Shown in pieces: positions 2,277 to 12,657 of a stretch of 64,000 nt of DNA (its first letter is position 1; the number at the start of each line of letters is the position of its first letter). Made by a program: the position numbers and the translations under genes. The notes beneath the pieces were generated by a model. That model had not been told where the DNA came from. It did no database searches and was given only the letters and a program-made list of their open reading frames with translations. The stretch spans positions 682,001-746,000 of the forward strand of contig NZ_FNJC01000002.1 in assembly GCF_900104305.1 (NCBI RefSeq), given 5' to 3'. The DNA comes from Filomicrobium insigne. GTDB taxonomy: Bacteria > Pseudomonadota > Alphaproteobacteria > Rhizobiales > Hyphomicrobiaceae.

Positions 2277-4862
2277 TCAAATAAACACCTCGACCACTCC
2301 GTATCGCGCATCTTGGGCGAGCTCTCTGGCAAATGCTGAAGGATTGTTCTTATCTGCCAGTATCGCAACGGACTTTCGTGCACGGGTCAACGCAACATAG
2401 AAGAGCCGGCGCTCCTCGGCGTGCTCGAAAGGCTCCGATGCCGGCAAGACGATGCTGAGCAGGGAATCGTCGATGATTTCTGAAGGGAAGCCCATGCGAC
2501 CGGAGGTGGCGCGCAGGATGATGACGTGATCGGCTTCCAATCCCTTGGATCCATGGACCGTCTTGAAGTCGATGGCGAGCTGCGGATGGCCTGACCGCAA
2601 TTTGGATAAATCATCTGGCCGAACTGATCGGTAGCGCCCCAAGACGAGTACGCTTCCACCGTCGGCGTTAGCGAGATTCGTAAGCACCGCCTGCAAGGCT
2701 TCACGTTCTTGCTCTCGCTTGTGCCAAACGACCCTAATGGCGGGATTGTCCGATGCGGCGACAGCCACAACCTGTTTCTCGATCTGAGAAGGGTTTCGCA
2801 GCACGAAACGTTGCGCCGCATGGGCGATCTTGTCGACACTGCGGAACGTTCGACCGAGGTCCACCGTTTCGTGCACCCCGTCCGCGCCGGCAAATGTCCC
2901 TCCGAACTTTTGTCCGAAGTTTCGCATGAGGTGTATGTCCGAGCCCGCAAAGCGGTAGATCGATTGCCAATCGTCACCGACCGCGAAGATGCGGGTATCG
3001 GCATGCTGGGCCTTAAGAGCAAGAATGAGCTGCGCCCGCCCATCGGAAATATCCTGAAACTCGTCAATCAGGAGATGGCGATACGGGCTGCTATAGCGGC
3101 CCTCCCGCACGTGATCGGTGGCGCGGCGGATCATATCTTCGAAATCGATCTTGCCGTCGAGTCGGTCCTCGTAGGCCCCCATGACGGGCTCGAAAATTTT
3201 CAGGAAAGCCAGCTCACGTGGGGCATCGGAATTTTTCGCAGCACGTCGACGGCAATTCTCGAACGTGAAGTCACTGCTTTTGAAGTGCCGCAGGAAGGTG
3301 CCGAGCGTCTGCGTGAAGGCATCGACCTGTCCCATGCGCGAGAGCTTGCTGTAAATGATCTCAGGCGGGAGCGGCTGACACCTCGCAAATGGCTCTAGCT
3401 TTCTCTTGAGCTCACTAAGCAGGTGTCCCTCGACATTTTCGTAGCTGAACGTTTCGATGAGGGTGGTGCCACGGGCTTTGTGGATTTTACGTTTCCATTC
3501 CATGTCCTCAAGATAGCTGTCACGGTCAACATAGGGGGCGGTCGTCAGGCGAACGTCGCCATTCGCGTCTCGCTCTTTACGAACGCCGAAATGCTCGATG
3601 TAGATGCCGCTGTCCGTCAGCCGAAAATCCGGCGTATAGGCGCGCCGGTCGTTCTCCGGAAGATCGTGCTCGTAGATCGGCTCATACTCGTAGGCGATGC
3701 CGTTGATATACAGCCAGTTGGCGATCTTCAGTTCTTCATAGCTTCGGACCGCCTCGCCATTGAGCGTTCGCAGCTCGTTGGCCCGGACATAACGATTGTA
3801 TTCGTCCTCGCTTTCGAAATCCCATTCGCTCCTGTAAGGCCGGTAAAACTCCGTGAACCAACGCAGCAGGAGCTCGCGCGAGCCGTCCTTGATGGCGATG
3901 TCATTCAGCAGGATATCGCGCAGTAAGGCATAGTACTGCCGATCGTCACTCGCATGCGCTGCCAAGGCAGGGCCCTGTCCCTCTACACTGCGGATAATCT
4001 CATAGCCTAATGCATGGAAGGTTCTCGCATCGACGGAGGTGCCGCATCGCTGCTCGATCCGACTCGCCATTTCCTCGGCGGCATCCCTGCCAAACGCCAG
4101 GAGAAGGATCTCGCCGGGCTGACGGATTGCGCGCTGAATCAGGTAAGCGGCCTTGGCCACAATGACACTAGTCTTGCCGGAGCCGGCCCCCGCGAGGACT
4201 AACGTCGAATCCTCATCGACGACGGCTGCGCGCCGCTGTTCCAGCGTCAGCGGATGCGTCTCAATAGTGTCGAACAAATCCCTCATCGCGGCTAGCTCGG
4301 TGGCGACGAACCTCGAAATCGCTTTGTCGCGCATCTGGTCGGGAGCTTGCGCAAAACAAACGACAGCCTCGAACATGCGCCTTTGTTCGACAGAGATCAC
4401 ATTGCCAGGCGGCGCCTCAGGGAGACGCGATAGGAGAGATTGGGCGCGTTCGACAAAAGGATCCAGCAGGCAGGCGGCCGGGTATCGGCGTGGTTGCTCG
4501 AGGCGCTCCATCATCTGAGAAAGGAGCCGAAGTTCGTCGTCAGCCTCATCGAATGCAGCTCGAACGAAGCGGTGCCATGCCTCCCTTGAGCTCTCGACGA
4601 ACCGCGCGATATCAGCTGGGCGGAATCCGACAGCTTTTAATTCCGAGCCGTCGCGCAACGGGATGGAGAGGGCGCCGAACCCAAGACGCCGGCTCGCGTA
4701 AACCGGCCCCGCCATCTCGGGAAAGGCAAGCGAGCGCGATGTGCTGCCGAGCAAATCGATACCGTTGCTGGTCAACTTCACGCTTCCAAATCGCCATCCG
4801 ATGATGCTCAGTAGGGCGCTTGTCAGCGGACCTCTGTGGATCTGGTGGGAAACAGCGCTCAT
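2277..4862 (-). CDS. UvrD/Rep superfamily helicase, helicase IV (HelD)-like
   Basis: This 861-residue protein has the full set of superfamily 1A helicase motifs: Walker A AGAGSGKTS at about 224-232, DEFQD (motif II) at about 597-601, VGDDWQSIYRFAGSD (motif III), GRTFRS (motif IV), TVHGSKGLEADHVIIL (motif V) and YVALTRAR (motif VI). An N-terminal extension of about 200 residues precedes Walker A, and a long insertion between motifs I and II includes a segment rich in Asp, Glu and Tyr, as in helicase IV. Such enzymes are ATP-driven 3'-5' DNA translocases. It is convergent with brxL across a 163 bp spacer and lies inside the island, so a role in defence or in maintaining the element is plausible but inferred. 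It has no recognisable nuclease domain. Confidence 0.88.
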   Translation of the reverse strand: MSAVSHQIHRGPLTSALLSIIGWRFGSVKLTSNGIDLLGSTSRSLAFPEMAGPVYASRRLGFGALSIPLRDGSELKAVGFRPADIARFVESSREAWHRFVRAAFDEADDELRLLSQMMERLEQPRRYPAACLLDPFVERAQSLLSRLPEAPPGNVISVEQRRMFEAVVCFAQAPDQMRDKAISRFVATELAAMRDLFDTIETHPLTLEQRRAAVVDEDSTLVLAGAGSGKTSVIVAKAAYLIQRAIRQPGEILLLAFGRDAAEEMASRIEQRCGTSVDARTFHALGYEIIRSVEGQGPALAAHASDDRQYYALLRDILLNDIAIKDGSRELLLRWFTEFYRPYRSEWDFESEDEYNRYVRANELRTLNGEAVRSYEELKIANWLYINGIAYEYEPIYEHDLPENDRRAYTPDFRLTDSGIYIEHFGVRKERDANGDVRLTTAPYVDRDSYLEDMEWKRKIHKARGTTLIETFSYENVEGHLLSELKRKLEPFARCQPLPPEIIYSKLSRMGQVDAFTQTLGTFLRHFKSSDFTFENCRRRAAKNSDAPRELAFLKIFEPVMGAYEDRLDGKIDFEDMIRRATDHVREGRYSSPYRHLLIDEFQDISDGRAQLILALKAQHADTRIFAVGDDWQSIYRFAGSDIHLMRNFGQKFGGTFAGADGVHETVDLGRTFRSVDKIAHAAQRFVLRNPSQIEKQVVAVAASDNPAIRVVWHKREQEREALQAVLTNLANADGGSVLVLGRYRSVRPDDLSKLRSGHPQLAIDFKTVHGSKGLEADHVIILRATSGRMGFPSEIIDDSLLSIVLPASEPFEHAEERRLFYVALTRARKSVAILADKNNPSAFARELAQDARYGVVEVFI

Positions 4863-5746: not shown

Positions 5747-6538
5747 TTATCCCAGCTCGGTCTCCGAGAGCATCGGGCTAGTTGAAACCAACTTAGCGGC
5801 AAACCTGTCGACATCCCCTGGGCGCGCCAGCTTCTTTCTCTGCCCTGGCGGAATCCACTGAAGGCGAGTTTCACCAGTTGACGGCTTTCGCCAGATCACC
5901 CAAGCATACGCTGTGGCCGTTGAGGCCTTCGGATCCCAGCGCCCCTTGATCATCGGCACTCTCTCCGAGAATAGCGCCACCTCATCGGGTGGAATTTTCT
6001 CGAACAATTCATAATAGCGCCGAGCTCCTTCCAACCAAGTCGTGCGTACTAGTAACGCAACGCCGGACTTCGCTTCACTCAAGGCGCGAATTGCGAACTG
6101 CAGAGCTAAATTGTAGGGTGGATTCGTTATGATCCAATCGGGATTGAAAGAGCAGAACGCCACGTTCGGTCCTTCCCCTACAAACGAGCCTACTTCGTAT
6201 CCTCGACCGTAGTCGTGGATGTCGCTCGCGTGGACCTTCCCAAAATATTCGCGAAGGACCTCGATCATGTGACCCTCGCCGCATGCTGGCTCCCAAATGC
6301 TAAGCTGACGAAAACCAATCACGTCTGGCGAGGTCGCGGGATGAGACGATTTAGCGAGTACATGCTCAATCAAGGCTCGCGTCGCCCATGGAGGAGTAGG
6401 AAAATAGTCCAGACCATTCGGCGGCTCCGCACGGGAAGCCATCACTGAGCGGGCGCCGAATGGCAGGCCTGACGCCATGCATGAGCCGGACTCTTCCGGC
6501 GAACCATTTCCTGTCACTTGATCCATAAAGAGTCGCAT
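5747..6538 (-). CDS. DNA adenine-type (N6) methyltransferase
   Basis: The 263-residue protein has a SAM-binding motif I, EPACGEGHM, at 83-91 and the catalytic motif IV NPPY at 139-142, in the order typical of N6-adenine methyltransferases. The arrangement (FPTPPWATRALIEH near 46-59, then EPACGEG, then NPPYNLALQF) resembles phage-type and orphan methyltransferases. No restriction nuclease gene is adjacent. A ribosome-binding site (AAGGAA) precedes the ATG. In an island with BREX, whose own methyltransferase is PglX, this enzyme could be a second modification activity, an anti-restriction function of the element, or an epigenetic regulator. The target site cannot be read from the sequence. Confidence 0.85.
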   Translation of the reverse strand: MRLFMDQVTGNGSPEESGSCMASGLPFGARSVMASRAEPPNGLDYFPTPPWATRALIEHVLAKSSHPATSPDVIGFRQLSIWEPACGEGHMIEVLREYFGKVHASDIHDYGRGYEVGSFVGEGPNVAFCSFNPDWIITNPPYNLALQFAIRALSEAKSGVALLVRTTWLEGARRYYELFEKIPPDEVALFSERVPMIKGRWDPKASTATAYAWVIWRKPSTGETRLQWIPPGQRKKLARPGDVDRFAAKLVSTSPMLSETELG

Positions 6539-7325: not shown

Positions 7326-8171
7326 CTACTGGCGATCGGTGACCGCCGCGGCGGAAGCCGCAGGCCGGACACAGGAGTTTACACTTTCGTCGCCTTTGTA
7401 ATCAGTACTCTTAATAGGAGAGACGAAACTGTAAAATTCAGCCGCATTATCGAAGCCTTCGCTTCGCATCCTCTTGTAGAGCGTCGGCCGGCTGATGCCG
7501 AGCTTGCGTGCGATTCCGGAAACGGACGTTGATCGTGGCGTTGATCCGCTTGCCGCTCGCTTCGCGGCAGCGCGCTGCTTGTCGCGAGCCTTCTTCATGG
7601 CTCGCTGTAGTTTCAGAACCTCGCCTTTTGTCATGTCGGCCGGGTGGATGCCCCATGGTCGACCGGCGCGAAGCCAATGGAGCTTATCAAGTTCAAGATC
7701 GAAGCCGACAGCTGAGGGGGACTGAATGGTTCGATATCCCTCATTCATCATCACAGCCTCAAATGCTAGCGCCACTTCTGCACGCGTCGCGCCATCAATG
7801 TATTTGTCTGCCCACTCCTGAAGACAGGCTAGACCGACGCTGCGATTGTCGTGCTCCGCCACGAGCGCGAGCAAGTTGCCGGCGATGGTCAGGAGGGCGA
7901 GCCGGTGGCGTGAGCGAAACAGGGCCGGCCTGCGTGTCGCGTAGACCTTCGTTAGTGATCCGAGCAGACGAAAGGCACGGCCCCTCACGGCCATCCTCAC
8001 CCGCTTTTCAGGGCCGACACCTTTGTCTTGATCAATCTTCGCCAGGTTTCGCAGGGCCTTTGGCTTCGAAGACTCAACCTTCTCGTGGAAGGTGATGACA
8101 CCTGTCTCGGTTTCCTCACGGTAGACCTCCGTGACTGACTCACTCTTGAAGGCGGTTGCAGTTGCTCGCAT
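7326..8171 (-). CDS. Hypothetical protein with C-terminal resolvase-like helix-turn-helix
   Basis: The protein is 281 residues from ATG 8171, which has GGAG seven bases upstream. A longer frame from 8309 has a less natural, Arg/Asp-rich N-terminus. I recognise no enzymatic domain. Near the C-terminus, SVSGIARKLGISRPTLYKRMR is a typical Hin/resolvase-type helix-turn-helix, preceded by a basic Ala/Lys/Arg-rich helix that is likely coiled or DNA-contacting. The middle part (about 70-200) is mixed alpha-helical, with no membrane segments. The gene is the only intact content between the two copies of the 445 bp direct repeat, so it may be cargo inserted or duplicated with them. A DNA-binding role in element maintenance is inferred. 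Confidence 0.65.
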   Translation of the reverse strand: MRATATAFKSESVTEVYREETETGVITFHEKVESSKPKALRNLAKIDQDKGVGPEKRVRMAVRGRAFRLLGSLTKVYATRRPALFRSRHRLALLTIAGNLLALVAEHDNRSVGLACLQEWADKYIDGATRAEVALAFEAVMMNEGYRTIQSPSAVGFDLELDKLHWLRAGRPWGIHPADMTKGEVLKLQRAMKKARDKQRAAAKRAASGSTPRSTSVSGIARKLGISRPTLYKRMRSEGFDNAAEFYSFVSPIKSTDYKGDESVNSCVRPAASAAAVTDRQ

Positions 8172-8371
8172 AGGCATACTCCGGTGCCGGTCGGGGCGCG
8201 GTTTTTCGATGAGGTCAATGGGGTCGGGACAGTCGCGATCACGCGGTTGGACGCGAAGCGAGGGATCAGCATCGCGATCTTCACTCAATCCGGAGCGGGC
8301 GGCGCGCACAAGAGCACCCTGACCAACTCCGTGCGTAATCCGCTAAGAAGCGTTCCGCCCCCCTCAAAGGA

Positions 8372-8817
8372 GGGACCGCCCCAGTAGCACCCATAATTCG
8401 CTAGCGTGGTACGGGACGTTCTCAGGTAAGCCGCTGCTTCCGCAGCATCGAGAATGTCGAGGTTCCGGATGTGCTGCGGGTCGAGAATGCGCAACTTTGT
8501 TCTTCGCACAACTTCCACTTCAACTCTCCGTACGTTCAAAGACGTACTGAGATATGCGTGAAAGCGCCAAGTTCTATAGGGCGATCTGACCCTAACGACT
8601 CTCGGGCGAATTACCCCAATTCTGAAACTGCCGCTTCGCCCACTCCTCTCCGGAATATCCATCCGGAATATCGCGACCAAACTCCATCCAAAGCGCAGCG
8701 GCTATCCGATTTCTCACCGCTTTTGAACCACGCCGATCTGTATTTTTTGCAGATTCACGCCACCATTCTTCAAGCGCGAGAAAGAACTCCCCCACTTCAG
8801 GGTTTGTGGCATCGCCC
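8372..8817. repeat. Imperfect direct repeat, copy B
   Basis: This is the partner of 6813-7255. It holds a truncated AlpA-like gene and the 3' end of the intact 246-residue gene. On the minus strand, the integrase, the 246-residue gene and the AlpA-like gene follow one another here. This looks like the ancestral order, from which copy A was derived. Confidence 0.85.
8376..8518 (-). pseudogene. AlpA-like helix-turn-helix gene, truncated copy
   Basis: This is homologous to 6705-6959 for its first 45 or so residues (RILDPQHIRNLDILDAAEAA and TSRTTLANY are nearly identical). The similarity stops at the GGGP segment, which here reads WGGPSFEGGG. The second half, with the wing and the LDVWLAGR segment, is missing. 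The break coincides with the edge of the direct repeat. The ribosome-binding site is also weaker (CGGAG). I treat it as a non-functional remnant. Confidence 0.7.
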
Positions 8818-9332
8818 GCTTCCGGAAGCGGTTCGGAGGCATATGCATCCAAGAGCGGGGTCAGCTCTCCTCCGAGCAGCAATATTTTCCTCTCGTTGTC
8901 GATGTCAGGCAGCTCGTCCGTTTTGTCGGCTATGTACTCTGCAAAATCGACTTCATCTGCGACGACCTCCAAGAACTCTCGCAATGCCTTCGCAAGCCGA
9001 TTAGCCTTTCGCTGCCGATCAGTGCGCACCGGAATGGCTAGCACGCTAGCGTAGGCGGCAGCGGCATCTGCCCTCGCCAATAATGCCCGAATGCATAACT
9101 GCTCCCGCAGCGAGGCTATCTCAGCCGTCAGGAAACCCTTCGCGATTGCTTCCGCCAACGGCTCATCAACAGCACAGGAATCTCCTGGGCTCAGAAGTCG
9201 CCCTACCGCTTTAGTCTCGGCTGTGGGGCGAAGGTTGTAGAGCCCTGATGCGACTGGGACGCGCCGACCCTCTTCCTTGGCGAAGAACCGCTCGGCACGT
9301 GATTGCTTAGCTACACGCTCCTTAGGCGGCAT
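8592..9332 (-). CDS. Hypothetical protein cotranscribed with the integrase
   Basis: This 246-residue soluble protein begins inside the last codons of the integrase gene (11 bp overlap), so the two are probably translationally coupled. It has a basic N-terminus (MPPKERVAKQSRAERFFAKE), a predicted helical central part rich in Ala, Leu and Glu, and a conserved-looking C-terminus with WWRES, RRGSKAVRNRIAAALW and GYSGEEWAKRQFQNWG. I recognise no named family. The C-terminal third is duplicated in frameshifted form at 7005-7258, which suggests the gene belongs to the mobile element. It may act with the integrase, but that is only inferred from position. Confidence 0.7.
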   Translation of the reverse strand: MPPKERVAKQSRAERFFAKEEGRRVPVASGLYNLRPTAETKAVGRLLSPGDSCAVDEPLAEAIAKGFLTAEIASLREQLCIRALLARADAAAAYASVLAIPVRTDRQRKANRLAKALREFLEVVADEVDFAEYIADKTDELPDIDNERKILLLGGELTPLLDAYASEPLPEAGDATNPEVGEFFLALEEWWRESAKNTDRRGSKAVRNRIAAALWMEFGRDIPDGYSGEEWAKRQFQNWGNSPESR

Positions 9333-10638
9333 CCTCTGCCCCCTTGCGGATCAGCGTGATCTTCCCTTTCGTACCGCTCATAGCGCCGGCGATCGCCCCA
9401 GCCGCCGCTTCGGCGGCAGCGCGGACAGGATCAGCCGCCAAATGAGCATATCGTTGCGTGGTGGTTGGGCTGGCGTGCCCGAGCAGCGCGCCGATCATGG
9501 GAAGGCTTGCACCCCCGCTGACAGCCACGGATGCGAAGCTATGGCGCAAGTCATGGATACGAAGGTCAGGCAGGCCCGCCATCCGACGGATGCCGCGCCA
9601 GGGCCGATTCAAGTCAGCCCTCGGCTGATCCGGTACTGATGAGCGGATTACATAAGGGCTGTTTGTCCGCGGCAAGCCGACAAGGATTTCGAGGGCGGGC
9701 GCGGGCAGTACGATATGACGTCTGCCAGTCTTGCTGAACACCGTAAGCAGACCCCGGCTCATGTCGACATCCGCCCATTTAGCATGAAGGATTTCGCGGA
9801 GCCGCGCGCCGCTGAAAATCAGCAGCCGCAAAGCGGCGGCCGTGTACTGGTCAATAATCGTCGGGGGCACGTTCTTCGGAACGTGCTTGGCCTTTTTGCC
9901 GGGCCTCGACGGCGGATCGTAGGGAATCCCCGTTGTCTCGGCTATCCGAATAGCCTCGCCCAACCGAGCAAGCTCCAGCGGAGTGAGGTAGCGTTCACGC
10001 TTCCGCTCCTTGTACGCCTTGATACTCCTCGCCGGATTGGTGCCCTCCTCGACGTGACCTGCGTGGTCAGCCGCCTTGTATATTGAGCCGATAAATTCCA
10101 GGCATCGGTTAGCCGTAGTCGGACTGGTCTTACCGATCCGCGTGTGCAGTCGCTTGATTTCGTCGCGCGATATTGCGTCAAGCTGGCAAGAGCCAATGGC
10201 CGGCCCAACGTGCCTCTTCAATAGGGAGCGATAGTTTCGGATGCTCCCCGGCCGCAGCGTCGCCTGCTCGGGATGCTTCTGAGCAATTTCATCCATGGCA
10301 TCGAGGTGTTCGGCAGCGTACTTGGCGAAAGTCGGAACTCTCTTCGCCTTGGCCTTAGCCATTGCCGGATCGCTGCCCAGCCGCACTTGCGCCAGAAACG
10401 TCTTTGCCCGTTCCCTCGCTTCCTCCGGCTTTAGCTCGGCGGTCGTACCAAGCGTGAGTCTCTTCTTGGCGACGCCGCGACCGCCGGCACCGGGACGATA
10501 TTCGACGAAGTACGTCATGCGCCCCGTTGACTCGACGCGCATGGCGAAGCCCGCAAGATCTTCATCATAATACACAACCCGTTTATCGGCCGGCGTAAGG
10601 CCGGCGAGACCACGCCGCGTGAGCTTCGTCGTTGGCAT
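9322..10638 (-). CDS. int: Tyrosine-type site-specific integrase (phage/ICE type)
   Basis: The protein has 438 residues from ATG 10638, which has GGGGGAG six bases upstream. The N-terminus is an arm-type DNA-binding domain (TKLTRRGLAGLTPADKRVVYYD, DLAGFAMRVESTGR, ARERAKTFLAQVRLGSDP), followed by a core-binding domain and a catalytic domain with SGARLREIL (first Arg), HDLRHSFAS (His-x-x-Arg), LLGHASPTTTQRYAHL (Gly-His and the nucleophilic Tyr). It is the last gene of the island and lies about 150 bp from the tRNA-fMet fragment at 10791-10838, which fits its role in integration at that tRNA. All catalytic residues look present, so it may be active. Confidence 0.93.
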   Translation of the reverse strand: MPTTKLTRRGLAGLTPADKRVVYYDEDLAGFAMRVESTGRMTYFVEYRPGAGGRGVAKKRLTLGTTAELKPEEARERAKTFLAQVRLGSDPAMAKAKAKRVPTFAKYAAEHLDAMDEIAQKHPEQATLRPGSIRNYRSLLKRHVGPAIGSCQLDAISRDEIKRLHTRIGKTSPTTANRCLEFIGSIYKAADHAGHVEEGTNPARSIKAYKERKRERYLTPLELARLGEAIRIAETTGIPYDPPSRPGKKAKHVPKNVPPTIIDQYTAAALRLLIFSGARLREILHAKWADVDMSRGLLTVFSKTGRRHIVLPAPALEILVGLPRTNSPYVIRSSVPDQPRADLNRPWRGIRRMAGLPDLRIHDLRHSFASVAVSGGASLPMIGALLGHASPTTTQRYAHLAADPVRAAAEAAAGAIAGAMSGTKGKITLIRKGAEDAA

Positions 10639-10790
10639 GAGGCTCCCCCTATTCGTGCGCCACCCGTGCGCCACCGCATCGGATATAACGTGGAATGAAT
10701 GGAAGCCAAACTAGACTTAAAATCGCATATATTCAATCTGATAGTGATAGATACGGAAACTCTTGGAAACATCGGGATAGATCAAAAATA

Positions 10791-10838
10791 AGGCTCATAA
10801 CCTGAAGGTCGTAGGTTCAAATCCTGCCCCCGCAACCA
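10791..10838 (+). other. Attachment site: displaced 3' fragment of tRNA-fMet
   Basis: These 48 bases match the 3' part of bacterial initiator tRNA-Met: the anticodon arm with CAT (CTCATAACC), the variable loop AGGTCG, the T arm with GGTTCAAATCC, the acceptor end and the encoded CCA. The 5' half (D arm and acceptor 5' strand) is absent; the upstream bases do not fold with it. This is therefore not a functional tRNA gene but the direct-repeat half-site left by integration into tRNA-fMet. The intact gene should sit at the other end of the island, left of the window. Confidence 0.88.
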
Positions 10839-11057
10839 AAATTTTCAATGACTTAGCTCAAAAACAATTTCCGAAGATCTGACGCCATGGTAATCCCATG
10901 GTATTCAACTGCGCGGACCTCCCCTGTTTTCCCCGCTTTGATCAGATTGCGGGTTAAGGCAAAATAACCTTTACTAGTCGTCAATCAACAGCAGCGGGCA
11001 GATGGTTCTTCTTGCTCGTGACTCTATTGCTGCCGCCACTCTCGCAAGCGGGTTGCA

Positions 11058-11453
11058 ATGCCAATGATCGACGAATCCGACGAGCGCCCCGACATCGAAG
11101 AATATTCGGTCACCTACCTCCGGGGCCGGGTCGCTGAACAGCAACAAGAACTCGATGAATTGAAGCACAGCATCGATGACCTGGTCGGCCTTGTCCGCGA
11201 TCTCACTGCCACACATGAGAAGGTCGCAAGATCAGTCGCGGTGCTTAAACCAAACGGCGAACCTCACGGATTGGATGCACCGATCATCAGTGCACAGGGG
11301 GCTGCCGCGTTTCTTGGCGTGTCCACTTCGACTATTGACCGCATGACACGTGATGGTCGAATGCCTGAACCAGTTCGCGTGTCAGAACGTAGACCTTGTT
11401 GGACTGTTCGGCAGCTCATGGAAGTTCGCGCAAAAGGCCTTTTTAAAAAGTAG
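11058..11453 (+). CDS. Coiled-coil plus AlpA/MerR-type helix-turn-helix protein
   Basis: The protein has 131 residues. Residues 15-70 form a likely coiled coil (EYSVTYLRGRVAEQQQELDE, then LKHSIDDLVGLVRDL). Residues 80-131 form an excisionase-type HTH: ISAQGAAAFLGVSTSTIDRM, then PEPVRVSERRPCWTVRQL. Such proteins bind DNA as recombination directionality factors or small regulators. It lies just outside the tRNA-fMet fragment, so it is either ordinary chromosome or a remnant of an older element at the same hot spot. No partner integrase is nearby on this side. Confidence 0.7.
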   Translation: MPMIDESDERPDIEEYSVTYLRGRVAEQQQELDELKHSIDDLVGLVRDLTATHEKVARSVAVLKPNGEPHGLDAPIISAQGAAAFLGVSTSTIDRMTRDGRMPEPVRVSERRPCWTVRQLMEVRAKGLFKK

Positions 11454-11729
11454 CTCGACCACTCTCGTCCGACTTCCGTTTGCTGTTTATGTGAAGCAGC
11501 AACGAGCGGTGCCAAGCCGCACCCCACCCAGGGGGGCAAGGCCGCGAAGGTGGGCCCCAAAACAGTCAATTAGTACCGTGGCCAACGCTTTAAAATTCCG
11601 TACAAACATAGTTGTATCACCAGCCAATAAGCCGGCAGCCTACGCCAATCTCTTTGGGTTTCTTGCGTCGGCCCACTTCTAGTGATAAGGAACAAAATAG
11701 GAACATGGTTACTTGAATGTAGCTTTGAA

Positions 11730-11999
11730 ATGAAGCAATCAAAACCGGCGTTGGTCCGTCACGTGCTTGACCAAGACACACTGACGATGGTGTCGGTTAG
11801 CTGTAACAATATTAAATGCAGACACACGGCAAACGTGCTGCTCACCCGCTTCTTGGACGCGGGGGCCACTCTCGACACGCCAGTCCCAAGCTTGCGGCGG
11901 TGGTGCGTGTGCAGCAAGTGCGGGTCGCGCAATATCGAAACGCGCACAACGCCATATCCTCGCGGCGTCAAAGGTGTGCCCCACATGAAGGACGTATAA
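11730..11999 (+). CDS. Small Zn-ribbon-like protein
   Basis: This is an 89-residue protein if ATG 11730 is used. A shorter form from ATG 11787 would begin at MVSVSCNN and may be the true one, since no start has a clear ribosome-binding site. Two cysteine pairs, CNNIKC and CSKC, with the pattern WCVCSKCGSRNIETR, suggest a single zinc-binding ribbon. Similar short proteins are common in Rhizobiales; that is my recollection of the family, and its function is unknown. It ends four bases before the SRAP gene and is probably cotranscribed with it. Confidence 0.6.
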   Translation: MKQSKPALVRHVLDQDTLTMVSVSCNNIKCRHTANVLLTRFLDAGATLDTPVPSLRRWCVCSKCGSRNIETRTTPYPRGVKGVPHMKDV

Positions 12000-12003
12000 C
12001 TCC

Positions 12004-12657
12004 ATGTGTAATATGCGCTCGATGACCAAGACACGTGAAACTGTCGGCAAACTCTTCCGCGTGTCAGATAACAGAATTCCAGCAATCGATCCGTTGGCAG
12101 GTATCTACCCCAGCAACAACGCGCCGGTCATTCGCATAGCCGAAGACGGCGAGCGTGAAGGCATCATTTCAAGCTGGGGATTTGTCCTTCCGCAAAAGGA
12201 CAAAGCGCCCAAGCGCGTCACGAATTTCCGCGACGACAATCTGGGCTCACCCTTTTGGCGCTCGTCTTTCGAGACCCGTCGTTGCCTCGTGCCAACAACA
12301 TCATTTGCAGAACCAAAGGGGCGGAGCCCCGCGATCTGGCATTGGTTTGCTCTTGGCCAGGACAGGCCGCTTTTTGCATTTGCGGGAATCTGGCGAAGCT
12401 TTCGCGGCGCGGTGAAGAAGGACGGGCCAGTCGTGGATCTTGAGGTTCACTCCTTCATGACCACAACGCCCAATCCGCTCGTCGCCACCATTCACCCAAA
12501 CCGCATGCCCGTCATTCTAACCACGGACGAAGAGTTTGACATTTGGCTCAATGGGTCTGCGGATGAGGCCCGCTCACTCGTCAGATCCTATCCAGCAGAA
12601 AATATGGCGATTGTTCAGTCCGCCGCCGAAAAGGTGGATATGTTGGACGAGTGTTAG
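12004..12657 (+). CDS. SRAP-family protein (YedK/HMCES type, abasic-site DNA-protein crosslinking)
   Basis: This 217-residue protein begins Met-Cys-Asn. In the SRAP family Cys2 becomes N-terminal after Met removal and bonds covalently to abasic sites in single-stranded DNA. Other family marks are a Glu in VPTTSFAEPKG and a His in EVHSFMTTTPNPLVATIHPN followed by RMPVIL. The usual CGR start and NARAE segment are replaced by CNM and TNFRDDN, so this is the divergent MCN-type branch. AAGGAC upstream may serve as the ribosome-binding site. The preceding Zn-ribbon gene lies four bases upstream. A role in DNA damage tolerance is assigned from the family. Confidence 0.85.
   Translation: MCNMRSMTKTRETVGKLFRVSDNRIPAIDPLAGIYPSNNAPVIRIAEDGEREGIISSWGFVLPQKDKAPKRVTNFRDDNLGSPFWRSSFETRRCLVPTTSFAEPKGRSPAIWHWFALGQDRPLFAFAGIWRSFRGAVKKDGPVVDLEVHSFMTTTPNPLVATIHPNRMPVILTTDEEFDIWLNGSADEARSLVRSYPAENMAIVQSAAEKVDMLDEC

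Follow-up and report, generated by a model that had tools for sequence, protein, structure and literature searches.

We analysed a window of 64,000 nucleotides of Filomicrobium insigne DNA, the whole stretch under study, together with the contig around it. Positions are those of the window unless contig 9 is named, and negative positions lie to the left of the window. The locus holds a displaced piece of an initiator tRNA gene, an integrase gene beside it, a cluster of defence-related genes and, beyond the left edge of the window, an intact initiator tRNA gene. The features are as follows:

Contig 9:658451-658527 (-23549 to -23473), strand of the half-site: intact tRNA-Met(CAT) gene, called by ARAGORN
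Contig 9:670337-682076, + strand: the other BREX genes, left of brxL; pglZ ends at window position 76
80-2113, + strand: brxL, the last BREX gene (PADLOC BrxL, E 6e-287; Pfam BrxL_ATPase, E 9e-126)
2277-4862, - strand: UvrD/REP-type helicase, 861 aa (UvrD-helicase, E 5e-41)
5747-6538, - strand: DNA methyltransferase-like protein, 263 aa (phrog_799, E 1.5e-64)
7326-8309, - strand: 327-aa ORF with a weak HTH match (HTH_23/HTH_8, below the curated cut-off)
8592-9332, - strand: 246-aa ORF overlapping the integrase stop (no Pfam, PADLOC or PHROGs match)
9322-10674, - strand: tyrosine integrase, 450 aa, reading into the island (Pfam, PHROGs, catalytic residues)
10655-10674, + strand: paired direct repeat GTGCGCCACCCGTGCGCCAC, candidate arm-type integrase sites (partner at contig 9:658598)
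10791-10838, + strand: displaced 3' half of the initiator tRNA gene, 48 bp, 100% identity, read as attR at the right end of the island
10794-10800, + strand: CTCATAA, the 7-mer of the anticodon loop, putative strand-exchange (overlap) region (loop conservation)

The 48 bases of the half-site (contig 9:692791-692838) matched positions 30 to 77 of the intact initiator tRNA gene at 48/48 positions (E 1.1e-18). The stretch begins with the final three bases of the 5' anticodon stem, continues through the loop CTCATAA and the 3' side of that stem into the T arm, and ends with the acceptor 3' strand, which includes A72, and CCA. The 5' half of the tRNA was absent: the 29 bases to the left agreed with the gene at only 7/29 positions, and ARAGORN called no tRNA in the window. 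An Rfam scan of positions 10000 to 12500 gave nothing useful. A first-pass annotation had described the 48 bases as the 3' part of an initiator tRNA without a 5' half, and this description held. Fragments of tRNA genes are common in prokaryote genomes (PMC9897764), which would suit a decayed pseudogene or a chance similarity with no tie to an island. We rejected this explanation as exceedingly improbable, given the complete identity, the shared strand, the adjoining integrase and the clean break at the anticodon stem.

The first-pass annotation had also predicted an intact tRNA-fMet gene and a left junction beyond the left edge of the window. The intact gene was found 34.3 kb to the left of the half-site, on the same contig and strand, with the BREX genes and other element genes between them. 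Position 1 of this tRNA is unpaired in the predicted fold, and in our reading C1 opposite A72 marks it as the initiator form. A search of the 3.85-Mb assembly (10 contigs, 100% completeness) returned no second intact copy; the third match, 75% identical, was a tRNA-Asn. The gene to the left of the intact tRNA is conserved upstream of the tRNA in five of eight congeners (70 to 78% identity). The interval thus shows the arrangement by which Islander recognises tRNA islands, with an intact tRNA gene at one end, a 3' fragment downstream in the same orientation and an integrase gene in between. The earlier remark that loss of the initiator tRNA would be lethal was sound in that the search detected just a single initiator gene. 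That gene is rebuilt on integration, however, and nothing is lost.

The product of the ORF at 9322-10674 matched Pfam Phage_integrase (E 5e-18) and Arm-DNA-bind_3 (E 4e-12) as well as the integrase family phrog_1 (E 3e-60). Its catalytic set could be read as R291, K315, H374-x-x-R377, H400 and Y409. The GTG start lies 116 bp from the half-site and an ATG start (10638) 152 bp away, which agrees with the initial description of an integrase about 150 bp off with an intact catalytic set. Because the right-hand repeat pair overlaps the GTG start, the ATG is the likelier start. The 246-aa ORF that overlaps the integrase stop had no Pfam, PADLOC or PHROGs match and is probably cotranscribed with the integrase.

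Both ends of the island carry the same paired repeat. Within the 58 kb examined, the pair GTGCGCCACCYGTGCGCCAC was confined to the two ends. Its shared form, GTGCGCCACC[C/T]GTGCGCCAC, was found twice, both times on the + strand, at distances of 71 bp from the tRNA end and 136 bp from the half-site towards the interior; the single unit GTGCGCCAC occurred five times in the same 58 kb, four of them within the two pairs. Seven nine-mers were common to the two ends, compared with a mean of 0.19 and a maximum of 3 in shuffled sequence. We regard these pairs as candidate arm sites of the integrase. Elements at the initiator tRNA in other genomes of the family displayed a comparable layout. GGGTACC-type pairs about 11 bp apart, the same pairing in other letters, were present at both ends of the G082, G044 and G056 elements, which had 3, 5 and 5 common nine-mers (shuffle means 0.2 to 0.3; maxima 5, 3 and 4, so that the G082 count falls within its shuffle maximum). 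The G043 element (4 nine-mers, shuffle maximum 4) and the G067 element (5, maximum 4) showed related matches that were unpaired. No nine-mer was common to both ends of the G081 and G002 elements, and the two-end repeat pattern is not universal among fMet elements.

The anticodon loop is the most likely place of crossover. The whole loop CTCATAA was kept in 25 of 26 aligned half-sites of the family, the sole exception being the second, degenerate half of G024, and the three bases before the loop varied among elements. The anticodon stem forms a 5-bp inverted repeat that encloses this 7-base loop. A review notes the correspondence between anticodon-type loops and the 7-bp overlap region that tyrosine recombinases have (PMC8371274).

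We surveyed the cargo by comparing 18 island ORFs with Pfam and PADLOC, which covered the smaller ORFs in part. The type I BREX gene set consists of brxA, brxB, brxC, pglX, pglZ and brxL. PADLOC and Pfam recognised all six in this order in one cluster, all on the + strand (contig 9:670337-684113), and by gene content the operon appears type I-like. The 263-aa methyltransferase-like ORF had no Pfam or PADLOC match; further ORFs with matches encode a WYL-domain protein and a 391-aa protein with partial RTasMBL/LmuA matches. In the helicase, a weak phage endonuclease I-like stretch (residues 368 to 462; Phage_endo_I, below cut-off) lies between the helicase matches. To the left of the window and near the BREX genes, contig 9:660067-669177 (L003:8067-17177) encodes an E2-E1-JAB fusion, a patatin and a 1429-aa nSTAND3 protein (STAND ATPase), perhaps further defence systems of the island. 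The initial label of a BREX island was therefore correct in placing a BREX operon inside the interval; BREX is only part of the content, and other defence-like genes are present.

Relaxase, conjugation or mobilisation genes were absent from the 18 ORFs by Pfam and PADLOC, as were structural, capsid, packaging or satellite replication genes, so the scanned cargo places the island neither with ICEs or mobilizable elements nor with prophages or satellites. Judged by these genes, the element is an integrase-bearing defence island. The same scan recognised no excisionase. Together with the missing mobilisation and structural genes, this would fit an immobile relic, locked in place with an integrase intact by sequence. 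Yet the orphan half is preserved at 48/48 bases, and the integrase ORF, its catalytic residues and the end repeats are all intact; we consider a relic possible but doubtful.

The right boundary proposed in the first-pass annotation stands in so far as the half-site ends the element, but mobile DNA perhaps continues beyond it. An excisionase/AlpA-like ORF (11058-11453; phrog_66, E 2e-7) was observed 220 bp to the right of the half-site. Its relative in the congener G002 (36% identity) lies about 0.3 kb from the tRNA of that genome, and the ORF may be a remnant of an older, second element. Nitrate reductase genes start further to the right. A partner repeat to the right of the half-site had been named as the finding that would overturn the proposed boundary; a search of the window that allowed a limited number of mismatches detected no further tRNA fragment there, and this candidate was rejected. 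Among eight congeners, we found no empty site with the same right flank, and the flank itself is not conserved there: searching with 12 to 32 kb of it gave only short scattered DNA matches, in four of the eight.

We are highly confident that the 48 bp are the attR of an integrated 34.3-kb island in which a type I-like BREX operon stands alongside other defence-like genes. According to our model, the integrase would have recombined an attP copy of the 3' part of the tRNA with the one initiator tRNA gene detected. The strands would most likely be exchanged across the 7-bp anticodon loop, whose stem would supply the two inverted core sites, and the paired GTGCGCCACC repeats at both ends would serve as arm sites. 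The left junction is then a regenerated tRNA gene made of the host 5' half and the 3' half of the element, the host's own 3' half having been pushed to the right end. Excision would reverse the process and rebuild the tRNA from the displaced half, if the element can still excise. Both junctions and their orientation, the cargo, the integrase and the end repeats were observed directly. Both ends of the island are fixed to the base, and its defence genes occupy a locus indispensable to the cell.

To examine the initiator tRNA as a docking site, we searched 103 genomes of the family with the tRNA as query, and 91 gave a match. At least one displaced 3' half was present in 24 of the 103 genomes after fragments at contig edges had been dropped (G061, G078 contig 344, and two of three in G001). 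The same search with tRNA-Cys detected a displaced half in 8/103 genomes (Fisher p 0.003; paired comparison 21 versus 5, p 0.002), a thin baseline of one control tRNA from a set without a known hotspot tRNA, in which halves may be underdetected as tRNA-Cys fits its query less well across the family; in both searches, only eight first-look candidates were scored in many genomes. The half lay downstream of the tRNA on the same strand in all eight genomes that hold both on one contig. A tyrosine-integrase-type ORF was found just inside 16 of 26 half-sites, reading away from them, by Pfam, catalytic motif or alignment; support is weaker in two of the 16 (L030, arm-binding domain only; L096, cut by the contig end). 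At L033 such an ORF reads in the opposite direction, and three of the remaining nine half-sites have less than 0.9 kb of contig on the inner side.

Serine-recombinase frames also border the same gene. A profile built from five such proteins detected a serine-recombinase frame reading towards the intact tRNA in 19/81 genomes, a lower bound because at least 13/81 had less than 1 kb of contig after the tRNA; four of the 19 frames are short pieces of 111 to 288 aa. Seventeen, located immediately 3' of the tRNA (L029, L036, L113, L136 and others), read on through 41 nt of the tRNA gene and stop in the antisense of the anticodon loop; the other two end 19 nt into the gene. Either sign, a displaced half or a serine recombinase, was seen in 40/103 genomes. 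Serine recombinases also lie outside five half-sites, and a 59-kb span in G081 is bordered by a serine recombinase on the tRNA side and, at the distant half, by a tyrosine integrase. Tandem arrays can evidently form at initiator sites, and with the AlpA-like ORF outside the half-site of the window they raise the question of whether our interval consists of two or more elements in tandem, with the integrase part of the right-hand element alone and BREX part of a different one. We consider this unlikely: under the mismatch limits applied, the 34 kb contained no third tRNA fragment, and the arm-like repeat pair is restricted to the two outer ends, in keeping with the single island proposed above.

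Five of the fMet elements were surveyed for content. Ten larger proteins out of the 64 ORFs listed include tape measure proteins (G082 and G044 elements), primases (primase-type genes in the G002, G067 and G043 elements), and PtuA-like and PifA-like proteins, so that these elements look prophage- or satellite-like with some defence cargo. In the G044 element, which carries a tape measure protein, a PifA-like KAP ATPase is encoded directly beside the integrase (L226:1604-4021). A TOTE-type primase-helicase is encoded just outside the G003 half-site (L030:4185-6635).

We then compared the integrases. Relatives of the window protein were 39 to 55% identical, some over the catalytic domain only, and mostly adjoin 3' halves of other tRNAs (Pro, Thr, Lys, Arg, Ala, Cys, Gln and Leu, read from the loops). 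A tRNA 3' half in the same arrangement was present at 14/21 relative loci: our own, G101 (fMet) and 12 with other tRNAs. Over residues 9 to 186, the truncated G101 integrase at its fMet half shares 50% identity with the window protein. Searches of viral contigs with the window integrase and with an alignment of seven fMet-clade integrases yielded nothing useful. In a tree of 29 integrases (13 fMet and 16 other; L076, L080 and L108, for which no suitable open frame was detected, and the truncated G101 protein left out), 11 of the 13 fMet integrases formed one group, and the window protein and L106 fell elsewhere. The window protein grouped with Pro/Thr/Lys integrases, with a support of only 83/81. 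The 13 fMet integrases imply three label changes on the best tree and two to three in bootstraps, and a tree that unites them in one clade is disfavoured (p-AU 0.016); taken alone, the well-supported branches require just one change and no second origin, and long branches meet. A single fMet-specific lineage was accordingly not favoured, and tyrosine integrases probably reached the initiator tRNA more than once. Within the limits that long branches impose, the lineage of the window protein, perhaps with its G101 relative, appears to have adopted the initiator tRNA independently, keeping the loop register.

Initiator tRNA alleles vary mainly in the 3' half. Among 86 copies from 81 genomes, including one with a run of N (G047) and one with a departing 3' end, positions 1 to 47 varied at three sites only. 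The apparently broken tRNA of G047 is merely this run of N. The T-stem displayed 12 allele combinations in these 86 copies, mostly compensated and mixed within genera, and eight genomes of the host's own genus have four T-stem alleles. Summed entropy before versus after the anticodon loop was 0.66 versus 5.98 for fMet (45 genomes) and 4.57 versus 7.81 for tRNA-Cys (50 genes, 30 of them best query matches, a sample biased towards similar ones). The contrast between the halves could reflect functional constraint on the initiator 5' half. The T-stem was fully paired in 25/26 orphan halves, G-T allowed. Fifteen intact/orphan pairs were compared, G049 being omitted because the 3' end of its intact copy deviates from the tRNA: nine were identical, two were one base apart, and four (G003, G004, G029 and G075) carried different alleles, with each copy fully paired on its own; in every differing pair the copies lie on different contigs, where contamination or strain mixing is possible. 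In G044, both copies carry an allele rare in its genus, and the last integration does not explain the allele. Because 4 of 15 pairs carry different, fully paired T-stems, the data suggest that the sole initiator tRNA can have its T-arm exchanged upon integration; drift or mixed assemblies are a possible alternative source of these differences.

We tentatively put forward a wider proposal, which we think rather less likely to be right than wrong. The single initiator tRNA gene of the family would be a shared dock for unrelated recombinases, whose integrations could replace its T-arm half with that of the element. The orphan half would decide whether the cell survives excision, a decayed orphan would act as a lock, and elements would set the initiator allele of their hosts. 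If T-arm replacement is real, mobile elements edit the 3' half of an essential RNA with a nearly invariant 5' half, and the trapping of an element by a broken orphan half becomes directly testable.

A tRNA island with crossover in the anticodon loop is of a well-known kind; the initiator tRNA is a less usual site. A full-text search, judged partly from passages and listings, turned up no open-access paper that presents the gene for initiator tRNA as a hotspot of integration. In Sinorhizobium meliloti, fMet genes are located within three rrn operons (PMC11476347). Like the islands in Islander, ours has a regenerated tRNA, a displaced 3' fragment on the same strand and an integrase between them, and anticodon-centred attP sites are the larger class there (2083 islands versus 1836); unlike them, its target is the only initiator tRNA found, a class that the Islander passages name as a sorting step with no usage figure (PMC4383910). 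In Escherichia coli, BREX is confined to two hotspots, and 18 of 41 hotspots are at tRNA loci (PMC10121019). Our island resembles the integrase-only defence islands of that species in combining defence cargo and an integrase with no other known mobility genes, and differs in its host and, apparently, its tRNA site (PMC10121019). Mesorhizobium ICEs and IMEs likewise integrate beside a tRNA-Met gene, of a CAT-anticodon type unspecified in the passages of that report, and beside other tRNA genes; those elements are conjugative or mobilizable, whereas no conjugation gene was found among the ORFs scanned here (PMC8627217).

A close parallel came from Rhizobium sp. 32-5/1 (L108). Its target is a different one, tRNA-Thr(CGT), and its integrase match is not one open frame. 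The intact tRNA-Thr(CGT) gene and two displaced halves stand in line on one contig (1684302, 1708809 and 1720417), with the third copy of the half following after about 11.5 kb. Together with the related integrase, this is probably a tandem array. As in our island, the integrase (51% identical) adjoins a displaced tRNA half and reads away from it, the intact tRNA lies on the same strand (at a distance of about 24.6 kb in Rhizobium), and a paired repeat, GGTGGCGACC, is present at the integrase start.
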